64,000 nucleotides of DNA from Planctomycetota bacterium. Lineage in GTDB: Bacteria; Planctomycetota; Phycisphaerae; Phycisphaerales; SM1A02. The notes below the pieces were generated by a model. It was not told where the DNA came from. It did no database searches and saw only the letters and a program-made list of their open reading frames with translations. Positions 1,340 through 64,000 of the stretch are shown one piece after another (the first letter of the stretch is position 1; every line of letters starts with the position of its first letter). The DNA is taken from assembly GCA_022574595.1 (NCBI GenBank), contig JACZRS010000001.1, forward strand, positions 434,001 to 498,000. Direction: 5' to 3'. Both the position numbers and the translations under genes were made by a program.

Positions 1340-2764
1340 ATGTGGTTCAAATCGAGTTTCACAATCCCAGCGGTCGCTGCGATTAGTTTCTGCCTCATTG
1401 GCGGGACAGCCCCAGCCGCGGCCGACATACTACACGTCCCGGGTGACTACCCGACAATTCAGGAGGCCATCGACACCGCAGTTGATGGTGACGAGGTGGA
1501 GGTCCATCCGGGCACCTATAACGAGACCATCAACTTCCTCGGCAAGGCCATCAGGGTGTACAGCACTGACGGCCCTGACGTGACGATCATCGACGCTCAA
1601 CAAACGGGAACGGTGGTAACCTGCTTCAGTGCAGAGGGGCCGGATACAGTCCTCGACGGCTTCACCATCACCGGTGGCATTTCCGGCAACGGCGGAGGGA
1701 TGCGCAACATCAACAGCTCCCCGACGGTGATCAACTGCACGTTCAGCGGGAACTCGGCCGGCGGCGGCGGCGGGATGTACAACGTCGGCGGCAGCAGCCC
1801 AACGGTGAGCGACTGCTCGTTCAGCCAGAACACCGCCGCTGATGGCTGGGGCGGCGGGATGCTCAACACGCACGGCGCCAGCCCCATTGTCACCAACTGC
1901 ACGTTCAGCGGCAACACGGCGAACTTCGGCGGCGGGATGTTCAGCGGTGACTACAAGGGCGGCGCCTTCCCGACGGTGACCAACTGCACGTTCGTCGGGA
2001 ACAGTGCTGACGTCGGCGGCGGCGGGATGTGCAACGACTTCAGCAGCTCGACGGTAACCAACTGCACATTCACCGGCAACACTGCCGGAAGCGTCGGCGG
2101 CGGGATGTACAACTCCTACTACAGCACGACGGTAACCAACTGCACTTTCAGCGGCAACTCAGCCGGCGATGGCGGCGGGATGGCCAACGTCGACGGCAGC
2201 GACGCCACGGTCACCAACTGCATTCTCTGGGGCGACAGCCCGAACGAGTTCTCCGGCAGCGGCACATCTACTGTGGGCTACAGCAATGTCCAAGGCGGAT
2301 TTACCGGCGACGGTAACATCGACGCCGATCCGCTGTTCGTCGATCCCGGAATTGGCGACTATCGCCTCTCATCCGGTTCACCCGCCATCGACGCCGGCAA
2401 TAACTGGGGCGTGCCGATCGACGAGAACGATTACGACGACGATGGCGTTTTGTGTGAACTATTCCCCGTCGATCTGGATGGCAACCCGCGCTTCAATGCA
2501 GACGAATCCGACTTCGATCCCGGCTGCGGCGTACCCGTCGTTGTGGACATGGGCGCGTACGAGTACCAGTTCGATCCGGTTGAGCAAATCACTTTCGCAG
2601 ATATCACAGGTGATGGCGCAGTGAGTACGCTTGATCTACTTTCACTTTTCGCTGATTGGGGGGAGTGCGCAAAGGGATGTTGTCTGGCCGATCTGGATCT
2701 CGATGGGTTTGTCAACACAATCGACCTTCTCTTACTCTTCGCAAATTGGGGAGCGTGTAAATAA
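1340..2764 (+). CDS. Secreted right-handed beta-helix protein with C-terminal dockerin-like domain
   Basis: A 474-residue exported protein. Residues about 1-29 form a signal peptide ending near APAAADI. The next segment (VPGDYPTIQEAIDTAVDGDEV) is the usual entry of pectate-lyase-like or copper-binding NosD-like beta-helices. Residues about 110-300 contain seven or eight turns of a repeat of the form TVTNCTFSGNTA..GGGM, characteristic of parallel beta-helix and chlamydial Pmp-like passengers. A short beta domain follows (LDGNPRFN..., typical of choice-of-anchor architectures). The C-terminus (about 415-474) has two Ca-binding loops, DITGDGAVSTLDLL and DLDLDGFVNTIDLL, each followed by F..WG, as in type I dockerins. 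Start chosen because AAGGAGG sits eight bases upstream. It probably acts at the cell surface or outside the cell. No catalytic residues were identified, so an enzyme activity cannot be claimed. Confidence 0.88.
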   Translation: MWFKSSFTIPAVAAISFCLIGGTAPAAADILHVPGDYPTIQEAIDTAVDGDEVEVHPGTYNETINFLGKAIRVYSTDGPDVTIIDAQQTGTVVTCFSAEGPDTVLDGFTITGGISGNGGGMRNINSSPTVINCTFSGNSAGGGGGMYNVGGSSPTVSDCSFSQNTAADGWGGGMLNTHGASPIVTNCTFSGNTANFGGGMFSGDYKGGAFPTVTNCTFVGNSADVGGGGMCNDFSSSTVTNCTFTGNTAGSVGGGMYNSYYSTTVTNCTFSGNSAGDGGGMANVDGSDATVTNCILWGDSPNEFSGSGTSTVGYSNVQGGFTGDGNIDADPLFVDPGIGDYRLSSGSPAIDAGNNWGVPIDENDYDDDGVLCELFPVDLDGNPRFNADESDFDPGCGVPVVVDMGAYEYQFDPVEQITFADITGDGAVSTLDLLSLFADWGECAKGCCLADLDLDGFVNTIDLLLLFANWGACK

Positions 2765-50969: not shown

Positions 50970-52439
50970 CTACCCCCAATTGCTAAACAGCATTAGTAAA
51001 TCAACAGTACTGACCTGACAATCATCATCAAGATCCGCAGGACAATCGTTACAATCGCTGCATGGCCCCCATTGTGCAAATAGTAAGAGCAAATCTACAG
51101 TATTGACAACGCCATCACCATCAAGGTCGCCGGGGACTTGTGGGCTAGAGATTCCGGCCACTACAAAGAACCTGCCGGTGGGTGGCCCGTTGAATCCACC
51201 GCCTGTGGCGCCGAGGAGGAAGTCCATGGCTCCATCGTTGTTGAGATCTCCGACTAAACGAACCTCAATGCCTAATCGGCCCGATGGAACCGTGTAGGTC
51301 ATCGATCGAACGATTGAGCCATCAGCACCGGAAAAGATAAAAGCTCGGCCGCCTTCCGTGACTGCATGGTCGCTACCCCAGGCGCCGCCGAGAATGTCTG
51401 GCACACCGTCGCCCGTAATGTCGTCGATCATTTCATTGGCAGCCAAATTGGTCTCTTCGCCGGGTGGAGCTATTGCATAGATCAAACTGCCATTGACACC
51501 AGAGAATACATAGATTATTCCCAGGAACATGTCTCCGATGGTGAAGTCAGGCACGCCGTCACCATTGACGTCCTTGCCACCGCCGATTCGGTCACCTATG
51601 AGACTGTATCCCATCCCAACATTCGGAACTATGTATTGCATGACGGCAGATTTGCCGTTAAACGAATACACGCGTGCTTCACCTTCAAAGAACGAATCAG
51701 GGCATCGGTTGCCTACAACAAGCTCGTCGCGATTGTCCGGTGGGTCGGATGTATCACCGATGAACGCCATGCCAAGGCCAAACTGCTCTCCAGAGATTGG
51801 ACCATCAATGGAGGCGATCAGATTGCCATCTGCACCAGAAAACACATAGGCTCGACCAATGTTCTCCAGCCCCATGATAAGGTCGTCAACGCCGATCGAC
51901 CCTACGGCGATATCGTCGATGCCATCTCCGTCAAAATCACCCCCAGTTGCTACACTAGCACCGAAACCGTCGTTTGAGACGTCGCTTGGATTCAGCACAT
52001 GCAGAGTTGATCCGTCGCTTCCATCATAAATCCACACTCGCCCGCCAGTCGGCCCGTTGAATGGCGCTCCGGCAACGACATCGAGCACGCCGTCATTGTT
52101 CCAATCCGTAGTCTGCATGGCGAAGCCAAGGATGGCTGATGCAAGCGATTCAGTGCGGTTCCAAATCTGACTGCTATCAGACCCGGAATATGCTGTTACT
52201 CTCCCGGACGAATTGCCGTTGAAGACGGCAGAAACGGCGAAGTCGATCGTCCCATCTTCGTTGACATCTCCAAGAGGGACAGCAGTCCAACCGAAAAAGT
52301 CTGCCTGGATCGGGCTCGCCACCTCAAGCAATGTCTGGCAGTCCTTTTCAAGCCACTGGCCTTGAACACTCTCCGCACTGAAGGTTACACAAATAATCAT
52401 CGCGCATGCAAAACCACGATTAGACAGAGATCGGATCAT
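50970..52439 (-). CDS. Secreted FG-GAP (integrin-alpha-like) beta-propeller with dockerin domain
   Basis: A 489-residue exported protein. Signal peptide at residues about 1-27 (GFACAMIICVTFSAESVQG). Residues about 40-425 contain six or seven FG-GAP repeats with Ca-binding loops such as DVNEDGTIDFAV, DWNNDGVLDVVAG, DFDGDGIDDIAVG, DVNGDGVPDFTIG, DITGDGVPDILGG and DLNNDGAMDFLLG, predicting a seven-bladed propeller. The C-terminal 60 residues are a dockerin-like pair (DLDGDGVVNTVDLL and DLDDDCQVSTVDLL). GAGGA at 52447-52451 fixes the start at 52439; the longer frame to 52532 is not supported. It probably mediates adhesion or surface interaction. The dockerin tail nearly matches that of the esterase at 30.4 kb. 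Confidence 0.9.
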   Translation of the reverse strand: MIRSLSNRGFACAMIICVTFSAESVQGQWLEKDCQTLLEVASPIQADFFGWTAVPLGDVNEDGTIDFAVSAVFNGNSSGRVTAYSGSDSSQIWNRTESLASAILGFAMQTTDWNNDGVLDVVAGAPFNGPTGGRVWIYDGSDGSTLHVLNPSDVSNDGFGASVATGGDFDGDGIDDIAVGSIGVDDLIMGLENIGRAYVFSGADGNLIASIDGPISGEQFGLGMAFIGDTSDPPDNRDELVVGNRCPDSFFEGEARVYSFNGKSAVMQYIVPNVGMGYSLIGDRIGGGKDVNGDGVPDFTIGDMFLGIIYVFSGVNGSLIYAIAPPGEETNLAANEMIDDITGDGVPDILGGAWGSDHAVTEGGRAFIFSGADGSIVRSMTYTVPSGRLGIEVRLVGDLNNDGAMDFLLGATGGGFNGPPTGRFFVVAGISSPQVPGDLDGDGVVNTVDLLLLFAQWGPCSDCNDCPADLDDDCQVSTVDLLMLFSNWG

Positions 52440-52755
52440 CACATATTCCTCTACATCAAGCGAACCAAATAACCGGTTGCAGTGGGGGCAACTCACGCTC
52501 CTATCTTGTAACCACCTGGGCGTTTGAAGCACAGAATGAATCTGGCTATAAATTTATGATTGTTTGGCCAACTCGACCTGTCAGAAACTTAGAGGATTTC
52601 TGTTACTTGTCTAAACTCGTCGGGAAAAGGCATACAGGTCTTGAGTCCGCCGATCACGCGTTGCAGTTTCCGCCTCACTCGGGCTGATGAACCTGATGGA
52701 ATCGGGACGGCTTTCTGGCTCAAGACTCATACCTCAGGACTCACCCCCTCTTCCT
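52440..52755. other. 316-base intergenic region
   Basis: It contains the ribosome binding site of the FG-GAP gene (GAGGA, 52447-52451). No supported gene, hairpin terminator or dispersed repeat was found. A promoter for the FG-GAP gene probably lies here, downstream of the lipoprotein gene, as both genes are on the minus strand. Confidence 0.4.
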
Positions 52756-53307
52756 CTACCTCCCAGCAGCTCGCACTCTGCCGAGCTGCACCCAATGCAC
52801 ACCGTTCGGCCGAACCGCTTCGCGGCCATCTGCGGGTTCAAAGCGGCAAAGAAGGTTGGCGCTCAATGCAGGGATGCGATCACCGCCTGCTTCCAGCAAG
52901 CTTAATTTGGCTACATGCACAGGCCCATAAATATTCCTGCCGCGCTCAAGATCAGATGCATTCATTTCCCACTGGGCAATATAAACAAAGTCTTGCGTTG
53001 ATGGATCTTCATCGTAACGAAGAGAAAATACAAAAGTGCCATCTTCAAACATTGGCGATGTGTGGGGTAACGAAAACAAATACATATTCGCCACAATCAG
53101 GTCTGGATAACCATTGCCATCGGTATCCGTGGGTTTGCCTTCAACCATCAAGGCCATGGTATTTGCCTTGGCTGAACTTGGTACTGCCTTTGCAGGTTTG
53201 GGATCGGGAGGCATGGGTCGAGCGCTACTGTACTCAATTTTCGTGGTTCTACATCCGAAGATTAATAGTGCAGCTAATACAGGCAAACTCTGTGCTATAC
53301 GATTCAT
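52756..53307 (-). CDS. Small lipoprotein coupled to the giant secretin gene
   Basis: A 183-residue protein with a lipoprotein signal peptide (SLPVLAALLIFGC, Cys about 19). A Pro/Ala-rich linker leads to a globular part: DTDGNGYPDLIVANMYLFSL (a Ca-loop-like FG-GAP fragment), YDEDPSTQDFVYIAQWEMNA and GPVHVAKLSLLEAGGDRIPA. Its ATG overlaps the TGA of the secretin gene (53304-53307), so the two are co-translated. By position it could be a pilotin- or partner-like lipoprotein for the secretin, but it shows no recognised pilotin family. It contains no secretin N-domain. Confidence 0.7.
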   Translation of the reverse strand: MNRIAQSLPVLAALLIFGCRTTKIEYSSARPMPPDPKPAKAVPSSAKANTMALMVEGKPTDTDGNGYPDLIVANMYLFSLPHTSPMFEDGTFVFSLRYDEDPSTQDFVYIAQWEMNASDLERGRNIYGPVHVAKLSLLEAGGDRIPALSANLLCRFEPADGREAVRPNGVHWVQLGRVRAAGR

Positions 53308-56300
53308 TCTTTTTCACCCTTGGTAGTATCTATGCGTGGTACGTCGAGGCGATTGCCATACCTATCATAAAGCCCGCCCGTACCATCTATAATTCCTTGT
53401 CGGATTTGATCTTTGATTTTATCAGGTAATGACAATCGATTGATTTCATCAATAGTGACACGGTCCACGCGATCAAGTTCTGTTGGACTCATAATCACGT
53501 GTGGTGTTAGCACGATCAATAACTCAGTCTTGGTTGATTTTTCAGATGTAGAAGTAAACAACTTTCCAATAATTGGAATATCGCCTAGCAATGGCACTTT
53601 TTGTTCACGGCTTTCATAACGATCAGAAATCAATCCGCCAAGAATAATAGTTTGGCCATCGCGCACAGTAACAGTCGTATCCGCAGTTCGCCTGGTAATA
53701 ATAGGCGAAGACAGACTTTCAGTAATTTGCGTTGTGCGCGCACTTAATTCAGAAATCTCCGGCTTAATTGTCATGCGTACATATCCATCGGGATTGATCG
53801 AAGGCGTTACTTCAAGAAGGATGCCGATATCTTCAGGAACTACAGATGATTGTTGACTACCCCGATCAAAGGAGGTGCTTACGGGCAAGCGAATAGTTTC
53901 ACCAACCTGGATGAAGGCTGGCTGATTGTTAGCAGCCATCACCGAAGGGTTGGAAAGCACTTGCAATCTTCCCTGGCCACGCAATGCGCGCAGCAGCAAA
54001 TTAAAATCAGTTCCGGAAACCGCAAGGTTGGGAACACCCATACCCGAAGCAAAGGCGCTTACGAGGCTGAAGCCGCCACTGATATTTACATCACCTTCTG
54101 TTCGCGATCCGCCAAAATCAATACCCCAATCATCCGAAGTATCGAGTGTAACTTCAGCAAGCATGACTTGAATAAGAACTTGTGGGGGATCAACATCAAG
54201 CTCAGCGATCATGGCCTTGACTTGGTCCATGTATCGCGGACTTGCGCTAATAAGAACAGTATTGGATTGATCATCACCAACGATTGTTACTTCGCGTTCA
54301 AGCAGACGGGCAGCAGAACCAAGTTGATCAACACCTATTGTGCCTATGAGTTTTCTCTGTTCAGATTCAATAAATTGAGTTAGCACTCGTGCAACTTCGC
54401 CTGCAACCGCGTTTCGCAAGGGATATACGTATATTTCGCGTTCATTTGCTTCCAATGCATCCAGTTCTTTAACAACCGTGCTAACCAGATCAAGATATAT
54501 TGGCGTGCCGGATACCAGCAGGCTGTTGGTTCGCGTGTCTACGGTTATGGAAAGTTGCTTGCGATCATCGGGAACTGCGGTCAGGTCGGTGTCCGCAAGT
54601 CCGCCAAGTGTAGGTGTGCCTTGCGTCGCGTTGACTCCTGGGAGGTTTTCATCATCTGGCTGTGTATATTCGCGTGGCTTAAGAACATAAAGATTGCCTT
54701 GCTGCCTGAGATTAAAAAGGTCAGTAAGAATCTGAGCCATAGCAAGTGCATCAGCATTTTTAAGCGAGAAGATCCGAATGTTTTGATCGCCAGACGAAGA
54801 ATCATCCAAATCCCGGATCATCATCTCGATCATTCTCATAGATTCTCTGGGTGCATGAACGATGATCGTGTTAGTTCGAAGATCGGGAGTCAGCGCAATG
54901 GATTCTCGAATTGCTGCGCTGGATTCCATTTCGGTAAGTTCCTCGCCAGTTTCACCATCTTCGGTGACAATCTCTCTAAGGTACTTAAGGACCGTAGCTT
55001 GTTGGGAACCACGACGAGGCGCACGCAGACCTCGGCCTGAAAGAACGTTTTCGATCAAACTGACAGTTTCCAGCGCATTGGCAGAACTAAGGGGAATGTA
55101 TTTGATCTCAACCACGGTCGATGGGCTGGTATTATCAAGCATCGCAACAAGACTTTTAATTTCCTTTATATCTGCTGGGGGTGCGTTAACCAGCACCGCA
55201 TTAAGACGACTTTCAACTGTAAGACGAATGGTATTTTCACCTTTGGTGCGGTTAACCTCATCAACGTACAAATCCTCCAGCGTTTCGACGATATCCACAG
55301 CCCGACTCTTGGTGAGCTGGATTATCTCGACTTTCGAATCACCTTCCGCTTGGGATTCTGCTGTGATAAGAGCATTGATCAGATCACGAATTACCTGAAG
55401 ATTCTCATCGTTAGCAGCAACGATCAGACTATTGCTAGCTATGTCCGCTTCGATAGTCACGCGATCCATCGGCGTATCAGCATCGCCTAGCGATTGTTGC
55501 CGTTCGCGCATCAACTGTTCAAGTCTGGGTGCGAGTAATTCCGCACGAGCACCCTCCAATGGTAAGACATGCAAGCCAACCGCGGGATCCATTTGTGTTG
55601 CTTCGAGCTTGGCGACAAGTTCGCGTATGGCTGTCAAATCTTCGAGGTTCGCAGCAATAAGCAAACTATTGGTTCGAGCATCGGTCATAATTAGAGGCTG
55701 CTGGCTACGCTTGATCTCGGCGGGCATATCTGCGTATCTGCGCTCCATAATTTCGTTGATAGTGTCAGCAATGCGTTCTATGTTCGCTGTTGTTAACGTT
55801 ATCACATCTAGCAAACCAACCTCGGGAAGATCCGAAGTATCAAGATCAATGACTAACCTTTCAATCACCTCATACGACTCGTTACCTGCTGCGATTATCA
55901 GGCTGTTGGTTCGTGAGTCTTCTATAATCGTGGCTTTTTGCAGGTCTGCGGTTTCCGGTTCGATTTCTCTGAGTCGATCGAGCCTGGCATCCATAATTTT
56001 GTTAACTATTGTTGCGATGCGCGATGCTGAAGCATTCTTAAGCTTAATCCTACGAATTGCGCTTAGCTCAGGCGCGATCGCAGAATCTAGCGTTTCTAAT
56101 AAACGTTCCAGCACTATGAAACTGCGCGGGCTGGTGGTAACGATAAGCGTATTTGTGCGTTCATCCGGCAGTGCAATAACTTTATCTTCCTGGCGAATGG
56201 CTTTACTTTGAACTTGTTGATCGAAAAGTCGAGTAAGCGTTGTCGCCAATCGAGATGCAGAAGCATGTGCAACTGGATAGATGCGTACAGATGCACCAGG

Positions 56301-59300
56301 CGCAGCCGCTTCGATATCGAGCATCCTTATAAGCTCGCTGACAACTTCAAGATTCATGGGAGTGCCAACGAGAATCAGCGCGTTAAGCTGAGACTCAGGT
56401 CGAATCACCAACCTGGTCATGGGGGTAAACACATCCGACTCGAGAATCGCTCCGCCGTTTTCATCCATTCGCGCCACACGAATTCTTCCAATTTGTTTTT
56501 GGAGTGGTGTGGACTGTGGAAGATTACCAACGCCATCTACGAGAATAGCTTGAAGCGTTTCTGCAAGATCATTGGCATCTGCAAACCTAAGCTGAACAAT
56601 GCGTGGTTCAATCCAACCAGGAGTCACATCTGCATCGATTCGACGAGCAAGAACATCTACAAGCGCAACAGCTTCCGCTTTGCCTGCAACGATAACCGTG
56701 TTTGTGCGTTCATCAACGCTAATGGCAATTTCATCTAATAATGCCGGTCCAACTTGCCCCTCGGGAATACCTTCAAGATTTGTGCCCGGCACACGCCCGA
56801 GTTGTTTGCCTTGATCAAAAATCTCGTTAACGATGCGTGCGAACTGGTCGGCTGCGATATTTTCAAGCGGAAATAATTGCACAGTCACAGCGTCGGTAAT
56901 AGGAAGTCGATCAAACATCTTGATAATTTCAGTCATGGCATAGACGTTTTGCTCAGTAGAACTAATTACCAGCGCGTTAAGCGATGTATCAGCAATGATG
57001 CGGATGGGCTTGGTGAGATCGAGCTGTATTACGCCTGCATCGGGGCCATCTCTTCGTATAGAAAGTCTGCGCACCTGCTCCTGGACAGCTTTAGCGAGTG
57101 AGGTTTGCGTTTGCTGATCCGTTGGCGAAAGGATTTGGCGAAGAATATTCTCCACTGCCTCCGCCTCAGCATTCTTGAGCGTGACAATCCGTGTTTGAGC
57201 TTGTGCATAGTCTGGAACAATATCGATAGATTTAAGCAGCCCGACGATGGTTTGACGATCTATAGGATTGGCTACAACTATTATTGCGTTGCGTCCAACA
57301 AGCGCTGCGACTTTGATAGGTTCGGTTACTATGCGCGAAACCGAGTCATCTGGTTGACGTTGGTGGAGGCCGATGGTTTCTATTACGTTCTTTGCTTCAT
57401 CGGGGGAGATATTTTCGAGTTCAATAATAAATATCCCGTGACCTGCGGGGGGCATTAGCGCATCAAGTTGACTGACAGTTTTTTCAATTTCGGCAAATAG
57501 CGCTGCGGTGCAAGCAATGATGAGGCTGTTGCCGGGCGCATCAGCATGAATTGCTAGTGGTTGGTTGGTTTGCTGCGCTTTGGCTTGAAATGCAGCCTCT
57601 ATTGCAGACGCAACTCGAGTTGCAGGCGCATCAGTGAGTTTTAGCACATGCACAGAAAGTCCCTGACTTATACCCGCTTGTTGTAAAGCTTCCGCTAATA
57701 CTTTGATCTGAGCGAAATCTTCTTCCTTTGCTCGAACAATCACAGTGTTGGAGGTTGCGCTTCCAACGATGCTCATTGCTCTTCGGCCGCTACGGTTAGC
57801 AGTTTGCTCATAGAGTTCATTAAGGGTTGCGGCCAGCTGTAGGGGATCGCCGTTGATAACAGGGATAAGCTGAGGTGGCGGCAGTTTAGTGTAGTCTGCA
57901 ACATCAATCTGTTCGATGATCTGTTCAATCTTTCGCATGTTCTGACGACTGGCAGAAACTATTACAGAATTAGTTTGCGGTTCCGCAGCTGCGCGAACCC
58001 ATTCTTCAGATTCAACAAGTCTTGTGGGTGGTGGTTCATCTCGTCTTTGATCGTCTTCTGAACCTCGGCGCTGATTGCGTTGTGATTGTTGTCCGCGGCG
58101 ATCTCTTTCAACCTGCCCCTGAAACGCATCATTTATCGCACGCGCAACAGATCTAGCATCGGCGTACATCAGCGGCATAACACGAATCTGCAGTGATGCG
58201 TCATATTCCTCACTGTCGAGTTTGGTAAGCAGCGCCCGAACGTTTACCCATTCTTCTTCACTTGCAGAAATAACGAGGCTATTAGATGCAGGATCTGCGA
58301 CAATTTGTACATTGCGTTCGCCGGGCGTTTCCGCACCTGGAGCATTTGGGCCATAGAAAAACGCAAGTGCTTCCTGAATTTTTTCTGCTTCCGCGAATTG
58401 CAGTGGTATGAACTCTCTGATTTGCTCTGGTCCGGATGGTTGATCGAGCTTCTCTACTATTGCAAGCAGTTGTTCTATCTGATCCGGAATTGCATTGATA
58501 ATAATCCTGTTCTCAGCAGTATTCCAATCGATGCGTACTTCATCACGCCGATCACCTCCGCGCTGTCGAGTGAATTCCATGAGCGTGAGATATACGTCAA
58601 ACGCTCGCGCATGCTCTAGAGGAATGATGCGAAATTCTAATGGGCTTTGCGGTTCAATATTTTCCAGTTTTTCAATGAGCGATTCGATAACCGGAAAAGA
58701 TTCAATGGTAGCAGTCACAACCAGACTATTGGATCTTTCATCTGCAACTATTTTGGCGTTGACTTCTACTGCTTCACTATCTTCATCAATCTTAAATGTC
58801 TTACCTTTGGTTTCACCACTTGCATCCAGCTCTAAGGTTTGTTGAAGGATTCGCATGACTTCTTCTGCACGCGCACCTTCAAGTGGGTAAGTACGAATGA
58901 TAGTCTCTTCGCTAAACTCTGGCTGGTCGAGTTTATCGATCAATGCTTTTGCTTGTGCAAACTGTTGCTTGGGAGCATTTACAATCAAGCTGTTGGTACG
59001 AACATCAGCGGTAACACGAACACCCTGCCCGCCACGCTTTTCAAATTGTTGACTGATAATCCGCGCAAGTTCCTCAGCAGTCGCTTCTTGTTTAAGCGCA
59101 ATAATTTCAATGATGCGATCGCCGGAATCCGGCTGATCCAGCCGCGACAGCAAATCTTTAAGTAGCGCGTGATCATCCCTATTTGCGGAGATGATTAGCA
59201 TGTTTGCCGATTCACTTGAGGTAATGGTCGCGGTAGGGGGCGCAGCGTTGATTGCTTGGGCTCTATCCTCAAGAAATTGAGATAGAGTTCTAGCAAGATC

Positions 59301-62300
59301 GCGTGCTTGAGCGAATTCAACAGGAACAGTTTCTATTTGCTGATCTTCCGGCGCAACCTGCGAATCGATACTTGCAATAAGCTCAGCTACTTCATTTTGC
59401 TCTTTTCCCGATCCGGAGATGATAAGAATTTTACTCGCCTCATCCTTGCGCACCTTTAGCTCATGCGGGTCACTTCGCTGCCACCATCGGAACGATCTGG
59501 ATGTATCTGTAAATACATCAAGGATTACGTCTGCAACCACATCAAGATCTGCATTTTCGACTCGATAAAGTTTGACTATGCGTTTGTCACTTTCCGATGG
59601 TGGAGCGTCGAGGACTTCGATGAGGCTTTCAACTAACGCGAATTTGTCACCTTGACCTGTTACGATCAATGCGTTTAAGCGCTCGTCTGCTCGAATTGCC
59701 ACAATATCACGGTTTTTTTGGCTTTGCCCTCCACCACGTGGTGGGCCATAAAAGAACATGAACGGATTTTGATTCCACATAAGATCATTAACAAGTCTCT
59801 GTAATGTAGTTTGCACATCATTAGCTTTAGCATGTTTTAGAGGAAATACTCTAAACTCTAATTGTTGGGTCGCATCTTCTGAATCGAATTGGGCAATGAG
59901 ATGTTTGATCTCTTCGAAATCTTCATCACTTGCAGCTATGAGAACGGTGTTGCTATTGGTGTCACCAATGATTGACACACGCCTCGTTTGTGCACGTCGG
60001 CCGCGCCCTGTCGATGAAATTTTCGCTCGGTCATCGTAAAAATTCTGCAAGGCTGCTGCAATGGAACTTGCATCAGCGCGTTCAAGAGTGATGGTACGGA
60101 CCTTGTAATCGTTAGTACCTCGCCTATCGATCTCGTTTAATACTTCGTTTATCTCAGCTAAGACTTCTTCAGAAGCGCGCACGAGTAGTGATCCGGTCGC
60201 ATCATCTGCAACAATTAAAGTTTCCGCCCGTCTTTTTTGATCGGTTCCAATGACTACCTTTTCAAGAATCTCCGCTGCTTGTTGAGGCATTGCAGCTTTA
60301 AGTTCAAGGATTTGTAGTGGATAACGATCAACGCCGAAGCTTTGGTCAAGCTGCTGAAGTAATGTGTCTACTTCCGCAAGTTGCTCGGGCGCAGCAGTGA
60401 CAAGCAATGTGTTTGTGCGTTTATCAACAGCAAATTCCGGCTGAATTGCTGATGGGCCTAATTGGCCTTTCATACTTTGGAATCTTGTTAGGAAGATTTT
60501 CCGCAATGTATCTGATAACTCATCAGCTTTGGCGTTTTTAAGTGTGTAAAGCTTTAGCGTTGTTTGGGTGTTGACTCGCGTTTGATCGAGCAACTCGATA
60601 AATTGATCGACGAAACCGATCGCCTCTGCTGGTCCAATTACGATTAGCGAATTAGTGTGAGAATCAGCGGAGATGCGAACTCGGTTAGGGTCGAAGATCG
60701 CTTCAATGGTTTGGCCTTCAAGTAATAATTTGATCGCTAAATCGCGCATGCGCTGCGCTTGCTTTCCACGACCTCGGCTTGTGGAATCGGGCGCTATCAT
60801 TTGCCTCACACTCTCAGCGGCGCGCTCCGCAGTTATAGTCTTCAGCGAATAGATCTTCACAACAGTTTTATCTACTGATGCAGGTTGAGATAGTGCAGCA
60901 ATTAGATCGCCTATAACTTCAAAGTCGATGTCGTTGCATGCAATTATCAATGCGTTATTCGTAATATCCGCAATGACCGCAACGCGGCGGCGCAGGTCGC
61001 CCGGCTTCCCACCGGCGGGCGTCATGCGCCGAAGCGTTTGGTCAATTAATGTAGAGATAGATTTAGCATCCACTGCTTGTGGCAGGCCAACATAATGAAT
61101 CGAGCTGGGTGCAGCTGGCAGTTGTGATTCAAGCTGTTCAACTAGAGCAATGATTCGCTCGATAGCACGTGGTGAGCCGACAATGATGAGACTATTAGTC
61201 TCAGGATCGACAGCTATAGTTACATCGGCTAAATCTTCAATAGCAGCGCGGCCAGCTTGTTGCGGCAAATCCTCGTTAGTTACATCCTGCACGGCGAAGA
61301 CTTGCGCTGCGATGGTCGGCCACAACGACATCGGCAGCGCAGAACTAGGGCCCGGCTGGGGCTGCGGCTCCTTTCGCAGACTTCTCCGCTTTAGCAATTC
61401 CTCTAGACTTATAACTTGTACTTTGCTTGATCCACGACGACCAAGCATACGTTGCAGCGTTTGAGCCATTTCCGATGCACTGGCTTTACTGGGATCGATT
61501 GCGATAAGTTGCATTTGGCGTGCGGTTGCGAGAGTTGCATTATCGATTTGTTTAACTACACGCTCAATCGTTTCAAATTGTTCATTGGTTGCGCGCACAA
61601 GCAAGCTATTGCTTGCAGTATCAACGCGAATTGTAGGTGGAGCATCGAGTTGGTCCTGCTCTTGAAATATAGCCTGGAGATTAGTAGCAAGCTCCGCAGG
61701 ATCTGCATTTTCTATTACAAGAACGCGAACAGATCTTTTTAACGCGCTATCGAGACCGGCTGGGTCTATATCTAATTGCGCAACCATTTGTTCTGCAACG
61801 TCAAGCGAAGTCGGTGGGCCTGAGATTACTACTGCGTTAAGCCGCGTATCTGCTGCTACTCTAACTCGGGGTTCGCCGCCTTGTTGTAGCTGTGCTTGGT
61901 ATAGCTGCGGAAGCATCCAATTTGGGAGTCGGTTGACGTCAATGTCACTCTCAGGCGCAAGCATTTGCTGAACGATGGGCGCAATAGTTTCAGCACGAGC
62001 GTGTTTAAGAAAAACTGTTCTTACTTGAGGCTGATCGAGCGAAACGCCTGAATCTAATGATGCGATGATCGATTCAACAAGAGTTAATTGATCTGGGTTC
62101 GCGGTTACTATTATTGAATTGCTCGATGGTTCTGCGGTAATGGTTGCGGGTTGTGTGCCTGGTTCATTAAGCGACTTAGCTGCAAGTGCGCTTTGCACCG
62201 CGGCTGCAACATCTGCGGCTTGTGCTTTAGTTAAATTAAAAATACGCACATCAACTGTACCGCTATTTGAACGTGGCTGATCCAGTTCAGCAATAAATTG

Positions 62301-64000
62301 TCTTGCCATTGGCAAGAGCTCAGTTGGCGCACTGATTAGCAAGCGATTTGCAATTGCATCAGCTGTAACAGTTGGTTGAGCGATTGAAATACCTGCTCTA
62401 GCAATCGCTTGTAACTGCTGTGGCCAACGACTGCGATCTCGGAGTATGGGGCTAAGCGCTTGTGCAACAACTGATGCTTGTGTGTGAGCAAGCGTTATTA
62501 CCTGCAAATCAATTTGCGGGGGCTTTAGTGCATTGCGATCCCATTCCGCTAATAGTGTCAAAGCGTCAGCAACTTCCTCATCCGTTCCTGCTACAACCAC
62601 AGCACCACTTTTAGGATCAGTGATAAGTTTTAATGTGTTGCGTCTGCCCATAGCGCGGCCGGTATCTACTACCTGTCTAACAATCTGCGCCAAAGCAATA
62701 GGATCCGCATCAGTCGGGGTGTAAGTTTCAACTATTCGCTTGGCGGATTCATCTGGTTGATCGAGTTGAGTAATAAGCGTTTCCGCAAGTGCCACAGTTC
62801 GCTGTGGACCTGAGACAATCAGGCTGTTGGTTCGTTCATCCGCTTCAACGCGTACCTTTGGGGTCAGATCTATCTGCCCTCGACTTCGGCGAATCCGCTC
62901 GAGCAGGATGCGCGGATCGGTCTCTTGTTGATCGGTCAGCAAGCGTTCTACAACAGGAGCTATCTGTATAGCCTCTGCGTATTTTAATTTGAATGTTCGC
63001 GCATCTATTGCATCCATCGAAGGCCGAGCATCAAGTGGCTCGATAAGCAGTTCAACTTCAGCCAAATCAGCTTCGAGACCAACAAGGATCAGAGCGTTTG
63101 CTCCGGGCGCGGTTAAGATTTTTACATCGATGGGATCGCCTGTTGCTTTGGAAATCAGGCTGCGTATAGCTTGTGATAGAGCTTGACTAACTTCACGCGC
63201 GTCTGCGAAGGTTAGAGGTTTGATGCGCACGATGGGATCGCCAAGCAATGCTGTACCGCTATCGAGCTGTCTTATAGTTTCTTCCGCAACGGGCATGAGT
63301 GCTTCTGGTGCGGAGATGATAAGGGTATTGGTCTTGCGATCGGCTGTAACATTTAATAGTGATTCGATATTGCTACCAGCTTCGGGTACGTCTTCGGCAA
63401 TACGGGCCATGAGTATTTCGCGCAGCATTGGAGCAAGAGTATCCGCACGTGCATTTTGAAGTTTGAAGAACTTAAGCGAAGTCGCTGGCCCAGCGCGACG
63501 AATATCAAGATCCTTCAGCAGTTTTTCAACGGTTGGGAAAATATCAGATGGGCCTGACACGATTAAGGTTTTACTAACTGGTTCTGTGCTGATATTGATA
63601 GGCACACGTCGATCGCTGCCAATCGAACCTAACTGTGCGGATTTTGCCAAGTCGCGTAAAGTTTTAGCCAGGCCGTTTAAGTCCGCAAAGATGACCTGGT
63701 AGGTTCTAACCTCGATCTCCTCAACGATCTTTTGGCGATCAAGTTGTTCAACGAGCTTCTCAAACCCAGCCATGCGCTGACTTGGAGCGTCAACTATTAG
63801 AGAGTTGGTTTGCGGATCAGCGCGCACAACGACTTCACGCGGTTGTTGTAGGTCAGGGCGTGGCCGACCCCTTGAATCACGAGGCATGGGCGGCTGGGGA
63901 TACATCTCATCAATCGTCTTTGCGAGTTCTTCCGCCCGCGCAACCTTAAGTGGGAAAATCTGAATTTCGCGCCCTTCAGTATCCATGCGATCCGCGTTAT
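53304..64000 (-). CDS. Giant secretin with about 38 tandem N-type domains, 5' end beyond window
   Basis: At least 3,560 residues are encoded, and the frame is still open at the window edge. I count about 38 consecutive modules averaging 86 residues. Each has an N-terminal strand ending in a V(I/F).L...A segment, a helix, a Gly/Ser-rich or acidic insert of varying length, the signature (A)D.RTNSLIV.A, and a helix closing in LD. This is the NolW-like secretin N1 fold. From about residue 3262 a normal secretin pore domain follows: PPQVLIQVMLAEVTLD, LQVLSNPSVMAANNQPAFIQ, VRDGQTIILGGLISD, VPLLGDIPIIGKLF and TELLIVLTPHVI. Known secretins have two to four such N domains. It should form an outer-membrane ring with an extraordinarily long periplasmic vestibule, or serve another role. 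Overlaps the lipoprotein gene by four bases. Confidence 0.9.
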   Translation of the reverse strand, partial: NADRMDTEGREIQIFPLKVARAEELAKTIDEMYPQPPMPRDSRGRPRPDLQQPREVVVRADPQTNSLIVDAPSQRMAGFEKLVEQLDRQKIVEEIEVRTYQVIFADLNGLAKTLRDLAKSAQLGSIGSDRRVPINISTEPVSKTLIVSGPSDIFPTVEKLLKDLDIRRAGPATSLKFFKLQNARADTLAPMLREILMARIAEDVPEAGSNIESLLNVTADRKTNTLIISAPEALMPVAEETIRQLDSGTALLGDPIVRIKPLTFADAREVSQALSQAIRSLISKATGDPIDVKILTAPGANALILVGLEADLAEVELLIEPLDARPSMDAIDARTFKLKYAEAIQIAPVVERLLTDQQETDPRILLERIRRSRGQIDLTPKVRVEADERTNSLIVSGPQRTVALAETLITQLDQPDESAKRIVETYTPTDADPIALAQIVRQVVDTGRAMGRRNTLKLITDPKSGAVVVAGTDEEVADALTLLAEWDRNALKPPQIDLQVITLAHTQASVVAQALSPILRDRSRWPQQLQAIARAGISIAQPTVTADAIANRLLISAPTELLPMARQFIAELDQPRSNSGTVDVRIFNLTKAQAADVAAAVQSALAAKSLNEPGTQPATITAEPSSNSIIVTANPDQLTLVESIIASLDSGVSLDQPQVRTVFLKHARAETIAPIVQQMLAPESDIDVNRLPNWMLPQLYQAQLQQGGEPRVRVAADTRLNAVVISGPPTSLDVAEQMVAQLDIDPAGLDSALKRSVRVLVIENADPAELATNLQAIFQEQDQLDAPPTIRVDTASNSLLVRATNEQFETIERVVKQIDNATLATARQMQLIAIDPSKASASEMAQTLQRMLGRRGSSKVQVISLEELLKRRSLRKEPQPQPGPSSALPMSLWPTIAAQVFAVQDVTNEDLPQQAGRAAIEDLADVTIAVDPETNSLIIVGSPRAIERIIALVEQLESQLPAAPSSIHYVGLPQAVDAKSISTLIDQTLRRMTPAGGKPGDLRRRVAVIADITNNALIIACNDIDFEVIGDLIAALSQPASVDKTVVKIYSLKTITAERAAESVRQMIAPDSTSRGRGKQAQRMRDLAIKLLLEGQTIEAIFDPNRVRISADSHTNSLIVIGPAEAIGFVDQFIELLDQTRVNTQTTLKLYTLKNAKADELSDTLRKIFLTRFQSMKGQLGPSAIQPEFAVDKRTNTLLVTAAPEQLAEVDTLLQQLDQSFGVDRYPLQILELKAAMPQQAAEILEKVVIGTDQKRRAETLIVADDATGSLLVRASEEVLAEINEVLNEIDRRGTNDYKVRTITLERADASSIAAALQNFYDDRAKISSTGRGRRAQTRRVSIIGDTNSNTVLIAASDEDFEEIKHLIAQFDSEDATQQLEFRVFPLKHAKANDVQTTLQRLVNDLMWNQNPFMFFYGPPRGGGQSQKNRDIVAIRADERLNALIVTGQGDKFALVESLIEVLDAPPSESDKRIVKLYRVENADLDVVADVILDVFTDTSRSFRWWQRSDPHELKVRKDEASKILIISGSGKEQNEVAELIASIDSQVAPEDQQIETVPVEFAQARDLARTLSQFLEDRAQAINAAPPTATITSSESANMLIISANRDDHALLKDLLSRLDQPDSGDRIIEIIALKQEATAEELARIISQQFEKRGGQGVRVTADVRTNSLIVNAPKQQFAQAKALIDKLDQPEFSEETIIRTYPLEGARAEEVMRILQQTLELDASGETKGKTFKIDEDSEAVEVNAKIVADERSNSLVVTATIESFPVIESLIEKLENIEPQSPLEFRIIPLEHARAFDVYLTLMEFTRQRGGDRRDEVRIDWNTAENRIIINAIPDQIEQLLAIVEKLDQPSGPEQIREFIPLQFAEAEKIQEALAFFYGPNAPGAETPGERNVQIVADPASNSLVISASEEEWVNVRALLTKLDSEEYDASLQIRVMPLMYADARSVARAINDAFQGQVERDRRGQQSQRNQRRGSEDDQRRDEPPPTRLVESEEWVRAAAEPQTNSVIVSASRQNMRKIEQIIEQIDVADYTKLPPPQLIPVINGDPLQLAATLNELYEQTANRSGRRAMSIVGSATSNTVIVRAKEEDFAQIKVLAEALQQAGISQGLSVHVLKLTDAPATRVASAIEAAFQAKAQQTNQPLAIHADAPGNSLIIACTAALFAEIEKTVSQLDALMPPAGHGIFIIELENISPDEAKNVIETIGLHQRQPDDSVSRIVTEPIKVAALVGRNAIIVVANPIDRQTIVGLLKSIDIVPDYAQAQTRIVTLKNAEAEAVENILRQILSPTDQQTQTSLAKAVQEQVRRLSIRRDGPDAGVIQLDLTKPIRIIADTSLNALVISSTEQNVYAMTEIIKMFDRLPITDAVTVQLFPLENIAADQFARIVNEIFDQGKQLGRVPGTNLEGIPEGQVGPALLDEIAISVDERTNTVIVAGKAEAVALVDVLARRIDADVTPGWIEPRIVQLRFADANDLAETLQAILVDGVGNLPQSTPLQKQIGRIRVARMDENGGAILESDVFTPMTRLVIRPESQLNALILVGTPMNLEVVSELIRMLDIEAAAPGASVRIYPVAHASASRLATTLTRLFDQQVQSKAIRQEDKVIALPDERTNTLIVTTSPRSFIVLERLLETLDSAIAPELSAIRRIKLKNASASRIATIVNKIMDARLDRLREIEPETADLQKATIIEDSRTNSLIIAAGNESYEVIERLVIDLDTSDLPEVGLLDVITLTTANIERIADTINEIMERRYADMPAEIKRSQQPLIMTDARTNSLLIAANLEDLTAIRELVAKLEATQMDPAVGLHVLPLEGARAELLAPRLEQLMRERQQSLGDADTPMDRVTIEADIASNSLIVAANDENLQVIRDLINALITAESQAEGDSKVEIIQLTKSRAVDIVETLEDLYVDEVNRTKGENTIRLTVESRLNAVLVNAPPADIKEIKSLVAMLDNTSPSTVVEIKYIPLSSANALETVSLIENVLSGRGLRAPRRGSQQATVLKYLREIVTEDGETGEELTEMESSAAIRESIALTPDLRTNTIIVHAPRESMRMIEMMIRDLDDSSSGDQNIRIFSLKNADALAMAQILTDLFNLRQQGNLYVLKPREYTQPDDENLPGVNATQGTPTLGGLADTDLTAVPDDRKQLSITVDTRTNSLLVSGTPIYLDLVSTVVKELDALEANEREIYVYPLRNAVAGEVARVLTQFIESEQRKLIGTIGVDQLGSAARLLEREVTIVGDDQSNTVLISASPRYMDQVKAMIAELDVDPPQVLIQVMLAEVTLDTSDDWGIDFGGSRTEGDVNISGGFSLVSAFASGMGVPNLAVSGTDFNLLLRALRGQGRLQVLSNPSVMAANNQPAFIQVGETIRLPVSTSFDRGSQQSSVVPEDIGILLEVTPSINPDGYVRMTIKPEISELSARTTQITESLSSPIITRRTADTTVTVRDGQTIILGGLISDRYESREQKVPLLGDIPIIGKLFTSTSEKSTKTELLIVLTPHVIMSPTELDRVDRVTIDEINRLSLPDKIKDQIRQGIIDGTGGLYDRYGNRLDVPRIDTTKGEKE
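54206..63986 (-). repeat. Protein-level tandem array of about 38 secretin N-type domains
   Basis: The modules are homologous in protein sequence but not near-identical in DNA, so the array is old and not a recent slippage product. The most constant word is TNSLIV or TNTLIV, preceded by a DxR/DxE dipeptide. Most modules are 70-90 residues. A few (for example around 61.0-61.5 kb, 58.0 kb and 54.6-55.0 kb) carry inserts of 20-60 residues rich in Gly, Arg, Gln or Pro between strand 2 and the TNS motif. The count is by eye and could be off by one or two. Confidence 0.85.

Follow-up and report, generated by a model that had tools for sequence, protein, structure and literature searches.

At one end of the window (the whole stretch of 64,000 nucleotides that was analysed, G000:C23:434001-498000), the minus strand encodes part of a giant secretin, the GspD of a type II secretion system (T2SS) operon. 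The complete protein of 5,075 aa consists, in this order, of a signal peptide, an N0 domain, 56 N1-type modules and one secretin pore. By family it is a GspD secretin, with a size and ring number far outside the known range; known secretins have a handful of N rings, and the six rings of Thermus PilQ have already been called unusual. We favor, with a probability of about 0.58, the reading that it forms the channel of a stacked-ring T2SS, with 56 N1-type rings in place of about three, and would span a deep periplasm.

The minus-strand frame is open from 53304 to 63998 and up to the window edge (in-window part of the gene, 53304..64000). The first-pass annotation had described it as a continuous frame of more than 10.6 kb, which is borne out by the open frame here and by its intact counterparts in many independent genomes. 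In the source assembly (4.09 Mb, 31 contigs), which was searched both by family and by region, the upstream sequence that the annotation had recommended obtaining carries the frame 4.5 kb further to an ATG at window-equivalent position 68531, preceded by a GGAG site, with gsp genes adjoining. The full gene, as delimited by open frame and start, occupies window-equivalent positions 53304-68531 on the minus strand (G000:C23:487304-502531; L008:805-16032). The first ~30 residues were judged by eye to be a signal peptide, and the mature protein comes to a calculated 554 kDa with a pI of 4.8. On the full frame, the signal peptide, N0 and modules 1-18 lie past the window edge. Within the window, all on the minus strand, are modules 19-56 (54180..63983; residues 1517-4784), the pore (53493..54179; residues 4785-5013) and, from the translation, a C-terminal tail of about 62 aa with the stop codon (53304..53492). 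The tail differs among species, with 65% identity to the protein of a relative (G036) versus 82% for the pore.

Judged by Pfam, by sequence profiles against the PDB and by predicted folds, the modules are secretin N domains. Scanned with Pfam in four pieces cut at arbitrary places, the protein gave 12, 15, 14 and 6 stretches of PF03958 (Secretin_N), 47 altogether, and a single PF00263 (Secretin). Our own module profile, trained on the giant GspD and 20 relatives, resolves 56 modules over residues 154-4784 with a median spacing of 80 aa, and finds no modules in 20 shuffles of the array. The largest gap in the array left uncovered by this profile is 6 aa; the modules stand back-to-back, almost free of linkers. 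The remaining comparison makes no use of that profile: modules 49-52, aligned from 17 genomes and searched against the PDB, match the N1-N2 region of solved GspD (E 2e-14). In an AlphaFold model of the same four modules (mean pLDDT 77), every module folds as strand-helix-strand-strand-helix, and the 20 top-ranking Foldseek hits of the model all belong to N domains of T2SS secretins; with a pTM of 0.60, the orientation between modules is too uncertain for use. The first-pass picture of tens of N domains followed by one C-terminal pore agrees with these matches, and the HMM searches that it proposed did not turn up modules unrelated to N domains. Its count of about 38 is right for the window, where our profile places exactly 38 of the 56 module starts (residue 1512 onward), but the window had cut the array, and the whole protein has 56 modules plus N0.

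The mature N-terminus is a GspD-type N0, an identification that is settled by Pfam matches in the homologues together with the predicted fold. PF21305 (N0) is found at the N-terminus in 13 of 20 homologues, with a best value of 3.1e-6; in the source organism's own protein Pfam gives no PF21305 match, and a sequence profile of N0 against the PDB gave none either. The model of N0 with two modules (mean pLDDT 85) finds as its best match PulD in the K. pneumoniae T2SS complex (E 3e-13) and also matches the GspC-GspD complex 3oss. At the other end, PF00263 (53493-53987) scores 175 bits on the C-terminal piece, versus a cut-off of 27.5, and the closest solved structure to the pore is again PulD (6hcg, E 2.6e-60). 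The GspD model TIGR02517 gives the C-terminal 1,399 aa 500 bits (cut-off 351), a score that the repeats inflate. On the C-terminal 615 aa it reaches 300 bits, below the cut-off because N0 lies outside that piece, and stays more than 100 bits ahead of the PilQ and YscC models. A PilQ of type IV pili was considered and rejected: Pfam scans across the whole protein gave no AMIN match, and the gene sits among T2SS pseudopilins, not in a pilMNOPQ operon.

The operon reads gspF-G-H-I-J-K-L-M-D-lipoprotein on one strand, with F through the M-like gene upstream of gspD and most of it outside the window; the order is kept in relatives wherever the fetched stretch extends far enough. GspG scores above its NCBIfam cut-off, the products of gspH, gspI, gspJ and gspK are pseudopilin-like, and a PilM/GspL-like protein (519 aa) and a GspM-like protein (319 aa, its gene ending 45 bases ahead of gspD) follow. 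The operon itself lacks a GspE; elsewhere the source genome encodes at least nine full-length PF00437 ATPases. The GspC HR domain, PF11356, has no match in the source genome, and no recognizable GspC was found. The first-pass annotation had suspected an undescribed secretion or envelope-spanning structure; the protein is indeed far beyond known secretins, but it is no orphan, being the GspD of a recognizable T2SS operon.

Two of the neighboring proteins may be accessory to the system. After a proline-rich linker, the GspM-like protein ends in a conserved domain of ~75 residues (L008:16078-16350, minus strand) with the pattern W..TG....G.E.WL.N..TGE...L.VG. The domain has no clear family match, the GspC HR domain included, and one of its homologues weakly matches T2SSB; it may supply the GspC-type contact with N0 that is otherwise missing. 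Downstream, a lipoprotein-like gene (52756..53307, minus strand; 183 aa, with a lipobox-like LIFGC) overlaps the gspD stop by 4 bases; of 20 loci from relatives, 16 have a homologue next to the giant gene. Its product matched none of the family models searched and is a candidate accessory factor, for which a pilotin-like role is a guess.

Among characterized systems the closest are GspD, PulD and XcpQ (PDB 6hcg, 5wq7, 5wln), which share the part order, the best pore and N0 matches and the operon partners. Solved proteins of this type have N0 and three N1-type domains in about 650 aa (20 nm in PulD), versus N0 and 56 in 5,075 aa here; three is the usual number in solved GspD and no criterion of the GspD family model. 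The PilQ of Thermus thermophilus likewise has extra N rings, which have been tied to a wide periplasm (PMC5745081, PMC4463427), but it serves type IV pili and has 757 aa and six rings in all, whereas the giant GspD has ten times as many and belongs to a T2SS operon. In the open-access literature searched we found no description of giant or many-module planctomycete secretins, and the papers there on planctomycetal giant genes do not mention secretins.

A tree built on 98 pore domains places all secretins with at least six modules in one group (support 99/99), all of them from PVC bacteria. It includes mid-sized secretins with 7-14 N modules from Pirellulales, Thermoguttaceae and other Phycisphaerae (about 1,080-2,270 aa where the frame is complete), which look like shorter forms of the same expansion. 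The one short row inside the group (L037) is probably truncated by the contig end near which it lies. Secretins with 3-5 modules, from Sedimentisphaerales and others, fall outside; those of Sedimentisphaerales and Anaerohalosphaeraceae (about 690-940 aa) are near relatives by pore and come from the same class of bacteria. Since the secretins with at least six modules share one group in the pore tree, the module steps of 3, 7-14 and 24-63 look like the outcome of a single expansion.

Proteins from different families of the order share orthologous modules at corresponding positions. Module 19 of the source protein is 76% alike to module 15 in a genome of another family (G046), versus 63% for its best paralogue and ~30% for most paralogues. 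Array length varies by blocks: modules 5-8 are duplicated to 9-12 in G000 and G036, modules 13-15 resemble 18-20, and in G030 and G043 a long block, ending near module 26, is missing. Clear colinearity between the two deep lineages is limited to the ~14 modules at the C-terminus. A recent repeat expansion was considered and rejected, as paralogous modules are only ~30% alike, orthologous positions are colinear, and only blocks of a few modules are recognizable duplications. In the comparison with G036, synonymous sites are saturated, and the non-synonymous difference amounts to 0.12-0.19 across the array and to 0.13 in the pore. By this contrast in substitutions, purifying selection acts along the entire array, which is about as conserved as the pore.

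The homologue search suggested by the first-pass annotation shows how widely such proteins occur and how their module numbers compare. A pore of the giant type is present in 125 of 251 genomes of the order Phycisphaerales that are at least 90% complete. Among the matches listed in the order, 111 of 127 frames have at least 2,000 aa (median 4,382, maximum 5,088), and about 110 genomes carry giant frames of 2,000-5,088 aa. The giant secretin is absent from many genomes of 2.0-2.9 Mb of the same family. A scan of named genomes found the giant type in Phycisphaerales, in Phycisphaerae metagenome assemblies and in several assemblies labelled Verrucomicrobia; among 38 genomes around one of the last, 18 have the pore type, which in 16 cases belongs to a frame of 2,464-4,311 aa. 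The largest frame seen, in a Planctomycetota assembly, has 6,169 aa and 63 modules. In the rest of the phylum, most of the nearest secretins have 450-1,500 aa.

How long such a channel might be can be estimated from known ones. The secretin pore with its cap takes up ~10 nm. PulD measures 20 nm with its four N rings (PMC6882859), and the six rings of Thermus PilQ belong to a channel of ~35 nm in a periplasm of ~70 nm (PMC4463427, PMC5745081). Taken together, these dimensions give about 2.5-3 nm per ring and would put N0 plus 56 rings at roughly 150-180 nm; a 15-mer would weigh a calculated 8.3 MDa or so. The first-pass annotation had estimated close to 100 nm; because the window had cut the module count, a full stack would be nearer 150 nm.

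In the stacked-ring reading, the C-terminal pore would be set in the outer membrane and N0 would lie at the far end, beside the inner-membrane platform encoded by the same operon, by analogy with PulD, where the pore is in the outer membrane and N0 points towards the platform (PMC6882859). As no GspC or HR domain is recognizable, it is from PulD that we infer the contact between N0 and platform. The 56 modules in between would stack as successive rings into a tube of ~150 nm, through which a pseudopilus would push folded proteins, and the length of the tube would let the T2SS work across a deep planctomycete periplasm. The platform proteins of the operon are ordinary in size, so GspD must supply any extra reach. 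Tomography from another planctomycete class indicates that the periplasm can be much enlarged in planctomycetes (PMC5394234), and the link to a deep periplasm that the first-pass annotation had raised was well judged as a possibility; a match between tube length and periplasm depth would follow from it. Ordered ring-on-ring contacts would suit both the linker-poor array and the position-by-position orthology. The wider proposal, to which we give even odds, is of an undescribed long-span class of T2SS that arose once in PVC bacteria for a deep periplasm, with 30-60 different rings in an order fixed over family-level divergence and a continuous tube of 100-180 nm that would be longer than any secretin channel known so far.

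The four other secretins of the source genome are ordinary in length (749-977 aa), so a deep periplasm cannot be needed everywhere and the long channel must be meant for certain sites or a certain task. One of the four, of 749 aa, belongs to a second gspD-gspE-gspF-like cluster on a 5.8 kb contig (L012, G000:C16), and a separate cluster, from pilM-like to secretin, lies on contig C10.

The array need not form rings throughout, and the fold-back, cleavage, filament or tether that the first-pass annotation had listed may apply instead. In the most credible of the alternatives, which we nevertheless consider well short of probable, only the last few modules would ring with the pore, like those of an ordinary GspD, and the other ~50 would form a chain of beads in each subunit that loosely ties the outer-membrane channel to N0 at the inner membrane and follows changes in the depth of the periplasm. 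The N-domain rings of known secretins can flex (PMC5745081), the AlphaFold geometry between modules is predicted without confidence, and clear colinearity between the two deep lineages is confined to the C-terminal modules; such a chain would, however, hardly need the constant 80-residue pitch with linkers nearly absent, or the identity and order of each module kept across families, which a simple spacer could do without. Position-specific conservation is also found in modular proteins that form no rings. The ordinary size of the genome's other secretins, by which distance alone may not explain the length, and the retention of its own sequence by every module would also suit a tube that stores or sorts folded substrates and may bend or lie along the envelope. 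We regard such a chamber as unlikely, as N0 and the usual platform genes are kept, the ordinary platform proteins lead us to expect both ends to be anchored, and comparison of dockerin-like tails with the giant gene across genomes gave no link to a substrate.

Cleavage of the array by proteases into separately acting pieces, leaving a normal-sized GspD in the outer membrane, is compatible with the sequence, where processing leaves no visible sign. We think it quite improbable: with no gap above 6 aa the array offers no module-free spacer as a cleavage region, and N0, which GspD needs, stands at the far N-terminus, so that cutting would part it from the pore. Mis-assembly or fusion of several normal genes might be suspected from the 31 contigs of the source assembly and from a two-contig genome (L174, G051:C1) in which the giant gene appears as three overlapping frames with 26, 19 and 13 modules, probably frameshift errors of long-read sequencing. 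We give this next to no credence. Independent sequencing does not split the gene, as the intact giant frame recurs in many genomes (the 111 listed matches noted above), several of them single-contig (G009, G031, G046, G566). Each protein has one pore and one N0, and its modules are too dissimilar (~30% alike) for repeats to have confused an assembler.

On the stacked-ring reading, 56 N1 modules under purifying selection in many genomes would mean that ring number can scale more than tenfold. The disputed depth of the planctomycete periplasm becomes testable through the giant GspD, because the length of a protein fixed in both membranes should correspond to the distance between them. The 3, 7-14 and 24-63 modules of related secretins also offer a natural series in which the scaling of a secretion channel and of its pseudopilus can be studied.

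Elsewhere in the window, FG-GAP and other secreted-looking proteins (50970-52532, minus strand; 1340-2764, plus strand) end in a dockerin-like double repeat with the pattern GDLDGDG..N..DLLLLFAQWG. The tail has at least 134 matches in the source genome; nearly all relatives of the family have tens of matches, and G009 has none. It was considered as a substrate tag of the giant T2SS and rejected, because its presence does not track the giant secretin: G009, G039 and G043 have the giant without tails, and G001, G005 and G017 have tails without the giant.

Finally, three assemblies titled Cyanobacteria bacterium CYA and Akkermansia muciniphila (L094, L096, L103) hold giant secretins. These group with Phycisphaerales or with the Verrucomicrobiota-labelled lineage, and the organism labels of the three assemblies look unreliable.
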